A stretch of DNA of 64,000 bases from Salegentibacter sediminis (lineage in GTDB: Bacteria > Bacteroidota > Bacteroidia > Flavobacteriales > Flavobacteriaceae): assembly GCF_002078605.1 (NCBI RefSeq), contig NZ_MSJR01000001.1, forward strand, positions 248,001-312,000, read 5' to 3'. Within the stretch, counting starts at the first letter, position 1. Every line of letters starts with the position of its first letter. Shown here one piece after another: positions 29,144 through 31,755 of the stretch. A program made the translations under genes and the position numbers. The notes below the pieces were generated by a model. The model searched no databases. It saw only the letters and a list, made by a program, of their open reading frames with translations, and was not told the DNA's origin.

Positions 29144-30493
29144 CTACAGGCTTAATCCCTTATACCTTTCAAAGGAGGCCACGGTTAATCCGTCGGTTAG
29201 TGATGCGGTATAAGAACATATTTCCATAAGTATTTTATATACCGAGGTTTCCTCCTGCAAGTGCTGAAGCTTAGGCACCGATTTTAGTACAAGTTTGTTG
29301 AAGTTCGAACTCTCCTCTTCCTGAGTCGGTAAAAGAGCTTTTGTATAAGTATCCAGAAGATATGAAAGCATCTTATAGCCGGCAATTTCTTTGTTGATCA
29401 CTTCTTCGCTCTGGTATATGCGCTCAATGCTTATTTTTATAATGTCTTTGATCTGTGCTTCATAACCGCTTTTGTCAAATAAGGCCTGGTGGAAGTTTCC
29501 TGCCAGAATAGCTTCTTCGTTTTGTAAAAAGGTCTCCACGGCTTCAGATATAAGAGTGTTTATTGCCAGTGCCCGTAGATAGGCAAGCCTGTCTGAAGTA
29601 TTTTGGAGTGTATTGTATTTCTGAGTGTTGATATTGTTTTTAACTAGTTTTATAAGGTATTCCAGGGCATAATCTTCATCTATGAGTCCTAAATTAATAC
29701 CGTCTTCAAAATCTATAATGGTATAACAAATATCATCGGCTGCCTCAACCAGAAATGCCAGGGGATGCCTCGCATAACCCAAATTTCCATCTTTCCCTGT
29801 TTGAATTAGTCCTAATTCCTGGGCCAACTCCTGAAAGCTGTCGCGCTGCAACTGGAAAAAACCGAATTTCTTATCGGCGATATTAGAGGTGGGTTTATGC
29901 GGAAGGGACTCTTTAGGATATTTGGTAAAAGCCCCAAGAGTGGCGTAAGAAAGTCGGAGCCCACCGGGGATTCCCGGTCTTGTTTCGGTTAGAATTTTAA
30001 AACCATTAGCATTTCCTTCAAATTTTACCAGGTCGCGATATTCTTTTTCTGTAAGTTGTTCTTTGAAGCGTTTGCCTTTATCATGACTAAAATATTCGCC
30101 AATCGCCTTTTCTCCTGAATGCCCAAAAGGCGGGTTTCCAATGTCATGAGCCAAAGCCGCCGCTGCCACGATAGCACCAAAATCATTCATTTTGTAACCA
30201 TGAATTGTTTCCAGATGCGGGTGTTTCTCAAGGATCTTCTGTCCTGCCAGACGTCCCAGGGAGCGACCTACCACAGAAACTTCTAGGCTATGAGTAAGGC
30301 GGGTATGAACAAAATCGGTTTTAGAAAGAGGGATAACCTGGGTTTTATCCTGTAAACTCCTAAATGCAGAAGAGAAGATTATGCGATCATAATCTACTTC
30401 AAAGCCAAGGCGGGTTTCATTTTGTTCTTTTCTAAGGCGTTTATTGGTGTCTCCAAAGCGTTTTAAGGAGAGAAGATGTTCCCAGTTCATCAT
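29144..30493 (-). CDS. dgt: Deoxyguanosinetriphosphate triphosphohydrolase (dGTPase)
   Basis: A 449-residue HD-domain enzyme that splits dGTP to deoxyguanosine and triphosphate. Metal ligands are visible at His68 (RLTHSLEV), His116-Asp117 (LAHDIGNPPFGH) and a later Asp in the DDICYTIIDFED segment. The length fits the long Dgt type. Such enzymes trim dNTP pools and can limit phage growth. Upstream on the same strand, after a terminator, lies the degenerate NrdB homologue, so two proteins linked to dNTP balance are neighbours. A second ATG one codon later is an equally good start. Confidence 0.92.
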   Translation of the reverse strand: MMNWEHLLSLKRFGDTNKRLRKEQNETRLGFEVDYDRIIFSSAFRSLQDKTQVIPLSKTDFVHTRLTHSLEVSVVGRSLGRLAGQKILEKHPHLETIHGYKMNDFGAIVAAAALAHDIGNPPFGHSGEKAIGEYFSHDKGKRFKEQLTEKEYRDLVKFEGNANGFKILTETRPGIPGGLRLSYATLGAFTKYPKESLPHKPTSNIADKKFGFFQLQRDSFQELAQELGLIQTGKDGNLGYARHPLAFLVEAADDICYTIIDFEDGINLGLIDEDYALEYLIKLVKNNINTQKYNTLQNTSDRLAYLRALAINTLISEAVETFLQNEEAILAGNFHQALFDKSGYEAQIKDIIKISIERIYQSEEVINKEIAGYKMLSYLLDTYTKALLPTQEEESSNFNKLVLKSVPKLQHLQEETSVYKILMEICSYTASLTDGLTVASFERYKGLSL

Positions 30494-30660
30494 TTGTGTT
30501 GGTGTTTGAGCTCAGTAGGTTGCGCAGTCTGGTCAAAAATAATAATTCCAAAGACTTCCGGGGCTGGAATTAAGGCTTATTTTCGTTTGTTTTTAAAGGG
30601 AATTGAATTTTAGGAGAATCTTGATTAAAATTAAAACCGGGGGGTGTTTTAATAATAGCT

Positions 30661-30694
30661 CAAAAAACGCCACGTTGGGGGTCGTAGCGTTTTT
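30661..30694 (-). terminator. Terminator after the NrdB-like gene
   Basis: AAAAACGC (30663-30670) pairs with GCGTTTTT (30687-30694). On the minus strand it ends in a run of T residues and lies just after the NrdB-like stop codon, so dgt is probably transcribed separately. Confidence 0.8.
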
Positions 30695-30700
30695 GAGGCA

Positions 30701-31648
30701 TTACAAATCAGTTTTAAAACTGATTTTATCAGAATCTTTATCTATTTTCTTTCCTGCCTGTTGAAATTTGCCTACACGTTGTTCGGCCAGGCTCGGTCGT
30801 CTGTCTGCTTGATCAGATGTTTCTTCTGTATTCTTTTTACAACCAAATTTTTCAAAAAGATTATCGCTAAGCAATTTTAGGTACTGCTCCATATGTTCCA
30901 CGGGCATTCCTATTAGATTAACCGGTAAACTTTGTAAGAGAAAATCTCCTATTAAATTTTCTGTCTCCAGGATGATTTCTCTTATTTTTTCAGGAGAGAT
31001 ATCTTTTTTGATCTTTTCTGAATAGAGGTGTATGGCCAGGTCACGGTGATAGATTTTATCCCGTGAAATGAGTTCACAATAATAGTTGAATCCCGATAGG
31101 TCTTTACGTTTTTTAATCCATAAAAGGGAAGAAAGTGCTGCCGGAAAGAAAATTGCATTCAAGGCAGCAGAAGCAACCAGGGCTTCGGCCAGGGAACCTG
31201 AACCTGTCCAGTTTTTGATGCGATTTTCAACAATTTTTAACTGCGGATTAATTTCAGAAAAAAGCCTTTCTTCGGTCTTTGGTCTTTTCAAAAAAGCTCG
31301 GGTGAGCATGGAAAAACTTTCGACGTAAACATTTTCTGAAACTGCCTGAAAATCAAAACAGAAGTTCGCTTCGGGGGTATCCCCCTTAAGTTTTCGGGTT
31401 ATATTCCGGGAGGCAAGGTTTTGAGAACCGGCAAGGAAGGCCATTAAGTTCCTCAGGAAATGAACCTCGTTGGTGTTTAACTTTTGTACTTTAATTTCCA
31501 GTTTATGGTCGGAAATATCGGTGTGTGGTGTCCAGAAACGGGACGCCATTTTTTTATACCAATCCCAAATATCGTGGTGTTTAACAGGGAAAATGATGAA
31601 ACGATTTTTATCGTCTTTCAGCGTGGTTTCCTGCAGGGATTTTGACAT
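30701..31648 (-). CDS. Degenerate ribonucleotide reductase small-subunit (NrdB) paralogue
   Basis: A 315-residue protein that aligns with class I R2 over its length: NRFIIFPVKHHDIWDWYKK (14-32), FWTPHTDIS (38-46), LISRD (193-197) and LPVNLIGM (241-248). Key residues differ. The first Asp (Asp44), one Glu (Glu105) and the last His (His201) remain. The ENIHS..Y motif reads ENVYVESF, so an iron-ligand His is Tyr108 and the radical Tyr is Phe112; the EGIFF Glu is Asn164; the SRDEGLH Glu is Lys198. Redox catalysis looks impossible. The C-terminus ends DKISFKTDL, reminiscent of the R1-binding tail. A regulatory or decoy role is inferred. No nrdA is adjacent. Confidence 0.82.
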   Translation of the reverse strand: MSKSLQETTLKDDKNRFIIFPVKHHDIWDWYKKMASRFWTPHTDISDHKLEIKVQKLNTNEVHFLRNLMAFLAGSQNLASRNITRKLKGDTPEANFCFDFQAVSENVYVESFSMLTRAFLKRPKTEERLFSEINPQLKIVENRIKNWTGSGSLAEALVASAALNAIFFPAALSSLLWIKKRKDLSGFNYYCELISRDKIYHRDLAIHLYSEKIKKDISPEKIREIILETENLIGDFLLQSLPVNLIGMPVEHMEQYLKLLSDNLFEKFGCKKNTEETSDQADRRPSLAEQRVGKFQQAGKKIDKDSDKISFKTDL

Positions 31649-31733: not shown

Positions 31734-31755
31734 GTTTTCAACAAAGTTTTCAACA
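31734..31755 (-). promoter_or_regulatory. Tandem TGTTGAAAAC repeats upstream of the NrdB-like gene
   Basis: TGTTGAAAAC occurs twice on the minus strand at 31746-31755 and 31734-31743, phased by 12 bases, about 90-105 bases upstream of the NrdB-like ATG. A related TGTTGATAA lies at 31822-31830 on the plus strand. The motifs resemble DnaA boxes (TGTGGATAA) with one or two differences. Function unproven. Confidence 0.4.

Follow-up and report, generated by a model that had tools for sequence, protein, structure and literature searches.

Inactive relatives of R2, the small subunit of class I ribonucleotide reductase (RNR), are known from eukaryotes. Yeast Rnr4 (Y4, or β-prime) and the apicomplexan protein R2_e2 (PfR4) have an R2 fold without the residues that make the radical and occur in RNR complexes, and the R2_e2 of Plasmodium is reported in complex with R1 and R2 (PMC3824934, in excerpt). 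Class Ic R2, from Chlamydia, carries a Phe where the radical Tyr would be and has its metal ligands intact; its centre contains manganese and iron (PMC3824934, in excerpt). In class Ie R2 the metal ligands are replaced, three Glu being swapped, and Lys213 follows Arg211-Asp212 (PMC8902622, in excerpt); the Tyr is kept and converted to DOPA, and NrdI was required to obtain active preparations (PMC8463856, in excerpt). A tyrosine in the C-terminal tail is conserved across all characterised class I RNRs and is essential (PMC8463856, in excerpt). A functional class I R2 has the R2 fold, a metal site of six ligands (or one of the known metal-free arrangements that still provide a radical residue), the C-terminal radical-transfer Tyr and an R1 partner. 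Among the open-access titles and abstract openings listed by our literature searches, none describes an R2 pseudoenzyme that stands alone in a bacterium, and the one paper there that mentions both Salegentibacter and ribonucleotide reductase concerns a phage and a sponge microbiome.

We have found an R2-like gene with no nrdA beside it in Salegentibacter sediminis, within an analysed window of 64,000 nucleotides (G000:C1:248001-312000) from a genome of 3.26 Mb in 22 contigs that is rated 100% complete. The features of the locus are listed below; residue positions were worked out from the frame.

30701..31648, minus strand: orphan R2/NrdB-like coding sequence ('QNK' variant), 315 aa, frame unbroken
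31734..31755, minus strand: operator-like element TGTTGAAAACTTTGTTGAAAAC, 22 bases, starting 107 bases ahead of the start codon
30659..30697, minus strand: hairpin, putative terminator, immediately downstream of the stop codon; G+C-rich stem followed by a T run
29144..30493, minus strand: dgt-like HD-domain gene, 449 aa, named dgt by likeness (Pfam gives the HD domain alone); context, not part of the mechanism
31421-31423, plus-strand coordinates: Q76, first ligand (canonical Asp)
31334-31336, plus-strand coordinates: E105, ligand, kept
31325-31327, plus-strand coordinates: Y108 (canonical ligand His)
31313-31315, plus-strand coordinates: F112 (canonical radical Tyr)
31157-31159, plus-strand coordinates: N164 (canonical ligand Glu)
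31055-31057, plus-strand coordinates: K198 (canonical ligand Glu)
31046-31048, plus-strand coordinates: H201, ligand, kept
30764-30766, plus-strand coordinates: F295 (canonical tail Tyr, equivalent to E. coli Y356)

The encoded protein belongs to the R2 family, its sole confident Pfam match being PF00268, ribonucleotide reductase small chain (E 2e-44; 152.5 bits against a cut-off of 33.6). An AlphaFold2 model built on a 32-row alignment has the R2 fold at moderate confidence (mean pLDDT 71.8, low over residues 274-315); the best Foldseek matches to it are R2 structures, human R2 3olj at the top (E 4.4e-11), and the solved structures nearest by sequence are eukaryotic R2 proteins. The NCBIfam beta-subunit models give the protein at most 44.8 bits, but the canonical NrdB of a relative from another genus (G021) also stays under their cut-offs, at 178.8 bits, so the low score is weak evidence by itself.

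Within this fold the cofactor site has been dismantled. Aligned with its relatives, the canonical ligand set D-E-H-E-E-H reads Q76-E105-Y108-N164-K198-H201, four of the six ligands being changed and E105 and H201 alone remaining, and both redox tyrosines are gone, the radical Tyr being Phe112 and the C-terminal radical-transfer Tyr Phe295. We inspected the ligand residues of 106 distinct R2 sequences from the loci that were fetched, a sample beyond which a diverged orphan in another genus is possible: 92 have D-E-H-E-E-H and both Tyr, one (from G047) has E-E-H-E-E-H and both Tyr, and the remaining 13 are Salegentibacter orphans, a distribution that argues against chance as the cause of the dismantled site. 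These orphans take two forms. In the QNK trio, which consists of the S. sediminis protein and two homologues of 87-88% identity, Q76, F112, N164, K198 and F295 are invariant and position 108 holds Tyr in two proteins and His in the third, from G007, so that three of the four changed ligands are common to the whole trio. The EKK form, found in 10 Salegentibacter genomes, has the ligands E-E-H-K-K-H with two Lys in the metal site and keeps His108 and Tyr112, the latter in 10/10 as against Phe in 3/3 QNK proteins. K198 stands directly after Arg-Asp in 13/13 orphans, and in 12 of them Phe or Leu replaces the tail Tyr, which is present in 19/19 aligned canonical sequences. Since both redox tyrosines and most ligands are gone and a class I alpha subunit was not found in the genome (see below), the protein cannot act as radical generator in S. 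sediminis, and the alignment supports the view that the protein is a pseudoenzyme unable to make a radical via any known R2 route. An earlier note on this DNA, made from the sequence by itself, had described an NrdB-like pseudoenzyme with the R2 framework and with Y108, F112, N164 and K198 in place of catalytic residues; the description stands, as do the four substitutions, to which Q76 and F295, overlooked there, have to be added, and the case is stronger than the note made it. Its proposal that conservation of the substitutions be checked in relatives has a divided answer, F112, N164 and K198 being fixed in the three QNK proteins and position 108 not.

By synteny and by tree, the gene is the ortholog of canonical flavobacterial class Ia nrdB. 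In G021 the block runs MarC, DUF3109, nrdB, nrdA (813 aa), dgt. Among 47 named loci outside the genus (of 57 in total), nrdB is followed by nrdA in 45 and the other two stop at a contig edge; dgt comes next after nrdA in 10 of the 47, and does so in several other genera. All 10 named Salegentibacter loci have nrdB followed by dgt, without nrdA. The genus set comprises 15 genomes, S. sediminis included: the operon nrdA is missing at the nrdB locus in every one of them, 13 have the orphan nrdB with an intact frame and dgt as the next gene (QNK in S. sediminis, G001 and G007; EKK in 10), and in the other two, G005 and G010, the orphan is missing and no nrd gene lies in the interval that precedes dgt. 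The S. sediminis protein keeps Trp39, Asp197, E105 and H201 and the R2 fold of the canonical proteins. It differs from them in being only ~39% identical to the G021 NrdB, in lacking four ligands, both redox Tyr and an NrdA partner, in a shortened NPFDFM...GKTNF segment and in its R1-binding tail, where ISFDADF has become ISFKTDL. A profile made from the 13 orphans finds a match in at least 296 of 397 family genomes; among the matches listed, three Salegentibacter genomes score 570, 544 and 473 bits and those elsewhere at most 345.

In the sequence tree the 13 orphans are monophyletic (support 100), with stem lengths of 0.53 for all, 1.16 for QNK and 0.83 for EKK, compared with 0.06 between the canonical NrdBs of G021 and Gramella jeungdoensis. 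At sites conserved in canonical proteins, 11 carry one and the same new residue in QNK and EKK, E198K and G99D included, and 43 of 169 are retained in both, W39 and D197 among them. Judged by sequence, the two forms are of shared origin. In a tree of neighbouring proteins G005 groups with the EKK genomes at support 100, and G010 with the three QNK genomes at support 77; its split between the genus and four outgroups has support 69, so that the rooting is not firm. The simplest history is that nrdA was lost before the genus split, nrdB was retained, and nrdB was then lost twice.

We propose that the gene descends vertically from the nrdB of the flavobacterial class Ia operon, whose order is nrdB, nrdA, dgt, that loss of nrdA at or before the base of Salegentibacter would have orphaned it, and that the orphaned NrdB was probably rebuilt into a metal-free, radical-free R2-fold pseudoenzyme. 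In deoxynucleotide supply this protein may now act as a binder or scaffold without catalysis of its own, under the old RNR signal and with a partner other than NrdA. We give this reading of a pseudoenzyme with a new role, taken as a whole, a probability of roughly 0.6; its origin and its non-catalytic nature, taken by themselves, we regard as very probable.

The alternative that survives best, though we think it unlikely, is that the orphan behaves as an Rnr4-like β-prime. Though inactive itself, it would then join an active R2 or bind an R1, and in that way help a class I reductase to assemble, stabilise it or inhibit it. The likeness, drawn at the level of description and not residue by residue, lies in an R2 fold without cofactor residues, and an active R2 and R1 are indeed at hand in 11 of the 13 orphan-bearing genomes, which also encode a class Id nrdBA pair. 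Such pairs occur in 13 of the 15 genus members, the exceptions being S. sediminis and G007 (61% complete). The partly conserved T-D-(L) end of the tail also fits. However, Rnr4 and R2_e2 act beside an active R2 and R1, and neither was found in S. sediminis: the single PF00268 match in the genome is the orphan itself, and a PF02867 search finds no class I NrdA but one 851-aa NrdJ, a class II, B12-dependent reductase that passes the adenosylcobalamin-dependent NrdJ_Z model (572 bits, cut-off 400). The S. sediminis orphan is nevertheless under constraint similar to that of the others. Conversely, G005 and G010 have class Id nrdBA without the orphan, class Id and canonical class Ia NrdB share only ~22% identity, and the tail is the least constrained part of the QNK proteins. 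With no NrdA and no other NrdB found in S. sediminis, inhibition of NrdA cannot be the role of the orphan there, and we have rejected it for this species. The earlier note's suggestion of a protein that binds NrdA as inhibitor, switch or sensor therefore fails, and the normal nrdAB that it wished to see sought elsewhere in the genome was not found in S. sediminis.

The class Id NrdB of Salegentibacter, though likewise a PF00268 protein, is of a separate lineage with its own nrdA. The solved relative closest to that of G001 is 6cwo, which we take to be the same F. johnsoniae protein as 6CWP and 6CWQ. These two, its sister entries, are class Id (PMC8463856, in excerpt). In G001 the pair sits between genes of 212 and 280 aa, and the 280-aa gene has nrdA next to it there and in 9 of the 10 EKK genomes; the locus of G011 stops at a contig edge, and G005 and G010 have no nrdA within 1.5 kb of that gene. 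In S. sediminis this site is mid-contig and otherwise syntenic but the pair is missing, the two genes that flank it in relatives being adjacent and 44 bp apart (L200 9846-9890, G000:C19); with nrdA present at that site in relatives, the pair has most likely been lost from S. sediminis.

With class Id absent, NrdJ is the sole class I or II reductase found in S. sediminis, and as far as these two classes go the species probably depends on B12 for ribonucleotide reduction. NrdJ is present in 15/15 Salegentibacter genomes, and 19 of the 45 relatives from other genera encode it too (34 of 60 genomes in all), so that we have rejected NrdJ as a trigger specific to Salegentibacter.

A second alternative, which we rate as quite unlikely, is that the gene is a relict in slow decay, its function having gone with NrdA and its frame being merely unbroken so far. 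The very long branches that followed the loss of nrdA are what decay would give, and G005 and G010, members of different clades, have no copy of the gene at all, so that it is dispensable in some lineages. We estimated dN/dS by the Nei-Gojobori method in 14 orphan pairs, of which 12 are unsaturated in dS. In all 12, which cover both clades, the ratio lies between 0.090 and 0.154 (0.11-0.15 within the QNK trio); one of the two saturated pairs gives 0.219 at dS 2.6 and the other no value. For genes neighbouring the orphan in the same 12 pairs, 68 values of a possible 72 were obtained, from 0.004 to 0.097, and 68/68 lie below the orphan's, so that constraint on the orphan is moderate. Against decay, however, stand these low ratios themselves, a ratio of ~0.13 on the S. 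sediminis branch (by three-point subtraction), the 13/13 intact frames, an operator-like element kept in 13/13 orphans, and new ligand-site residues that, position 108 in QNK aside, are fixed within each clade. The earlier note's view that the full-length gene is under selection and is not a decaying pseudogene agrees with these values.

The selection is unevenly spread along the protein. In QNK (3 pairs) dN/dS is 0.14 over residues 1-45, 0.10 over the core (46-272) and 0.46 over the tail (273-315), and in EKK (4 pairs) it is 0.04, 0.12 and 0.16 over the same regions; the tail has few sites, which makes its values rough. On these ratios and the stem lengths, the orphans changed very fast early and are now under purifying selection, and since the core is lower than the tail, the constraint is mainly on the fold and not on the old NrdA-binding tail, to whose resemblance to an R1-binding peptide the earlier note had appealed. 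We note that the final T-D-(L) is mostly common to QNK and EKK despite an overall identity of ~36% (one EKK protein has P-D-L and four lack the last residue), and that the conserved end could mean that the tail still binds an alpha-like partner. Taken together, the sequence comparisons indicate a genus-level orphan R2 pseudoenzyme under selection.

What leads us to place this pseudoenzyme in deoxynucleotide supply, and to name NrdJ and the dNTPase-like Dgt as the first candidate partners, is that it has kept the upstream element of nrdB. TGTTGAAAACTTTGTTGAAAAC occurs as an exact copy only here in the S. sediminis genome, with one other site at three mismatches. The element is found at -98 to -108 with 0-5 mismatches in 13/13 orphans, and at about the same place with as few mismatches in 35 of 92 non-orphan nrdB genes, mostly those of the closest relatives; the other 57 have at least 6 mismatches, no better than shuffles (of 525 shuffles none fell below 6 and three reached 6). 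Since the S. sediminis gene supplied the pattern, the match in QNK is circular, but that in other genera is not. Most of the more distant canonical genes have a poor version of the element or none, so its label as an RNR signal rests on the close relatives, whose canonical class Ia nrdB genes share it with the orphan. Whether the partner is one of the two candidates, NrdJ or Dgt, is doubtful, and we advance only tentatively the specific idea that the orphan is a metal-free regulator of deoxynucleotide supply that acts on NrdJ or Dgt under the old RNR control element.

Some Flavobacteriaceae have a two-box structure, TGTTGAAAAC-TT-TGTTGAAAAC, ahead of nrdB, positions 31734-31755 of the window included. 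It does not resemble the NrdR box.

Downstream, the hairpin at 30659..30697 (-20.9 kcal/mol; fold z-score -6.9) is conserved in the three QNK genomes, and EKK genes have a similar arrangement downstream; the consensus scan did not pick it up. It is a probable terminator, and its position after the stop codon suggests that the orphan forms a transcription unit separate from dgt. We accordingly set aside co-transcription with dgt, the strong hairpin and T run standing directly after the stop codon, and adjacency to dgt may be merely inherited.

A third alternative takes the orphan out of nucleotide metabolism altogether, as a helical protein adopted for ligand binding or for a structural role. 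Fast remodelling, with the redox chemistry lost and the fold retained, is compatible with such an adoption, but the operator-like element of nrdB and the adjacency to dgt are both present in all 13 orphans, and, although both could be meaningless inheritance, we think the idea very unlikely.

In the pseudoenzyme that we favour, the old metal site may have become a charge-balanced, metal-free core. The four carboxylate positions carry no net formal charge in either form (Q, E, N, K for QNK; E, E, K, K for EKK), and K198 would stand in for the metal through a putative pairing with E105; in EKK two acids would be balanced by two lysines. The Lys directly after the conserved Arg-Asp recalls class Ie, in which Lys213 has the same place, and the Phe at 112 recalls class Ic. 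Class Ic, however, combines its Phe with intact ligands, of which the S. sediminis protein keeps 2 of 6, and in S. sediminis the exchanges affect an Asp and two Glu, plus a His in two of the three QNK proteins, where class Ie swaps three Glu. We read the Lys as convergence and not as membership. For QNK we have ruled class Ie out, there being no Tyr to become DOPA, no tail Tyr, no class I alpha found in S. sediminis and no match to NrdI (PF07972) in any of the 15 Salegentibacter genomes, a profile that matched 3 of 14 control genomes; the earlier note had likewise kept the protein apart from class Ie. That the orphans are instead a new metal-free catalytic R2 of this general kind, with K198 as the cation and another residue as radical carrier, is highly improbable even though EKK orphans retain Tyr112 and His108, given the missing QNK Tyr, the absence of NrdI matches, the tail Tyr lost in 12/13 orphans and the S. 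sediminis genome in which a class I alpha subunit was not found.

If the tentative idea of a regulator acting on NrdJ or Dgt is right, S. sediminis would have an R2 pseudoenzyme that stands alone and does its work in the absence of any class I reductase, and one genus would hold two chemically different, equally charge-balanced forms of it. The inactive R2s of yeast and apicomplexans are described beside R1; here R1 is gone from the locus in all 15 genomes, no class I alpha was found in S. sediminis, and R2 is kept under purifying selection, which suggests that a very old protein has taken on a new task outside catalysis and lets one ask what the R2 fold does beyond radical making. The two replacement sets in sister clades also offer a route to ask how the core of a metalloprotein survives metal-free.

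Salegentibacter provides a natural test system, with species that have or lack class Id and that have or lack the orphan. In one of those without the orphan, G010, we also observed a second class Id nrdB copy (G010:C1:11430-12098, L101), which has two in-frame stops and lies beside another nrdA copy; this second nrdBA is apparently a duplicated, broken copy.
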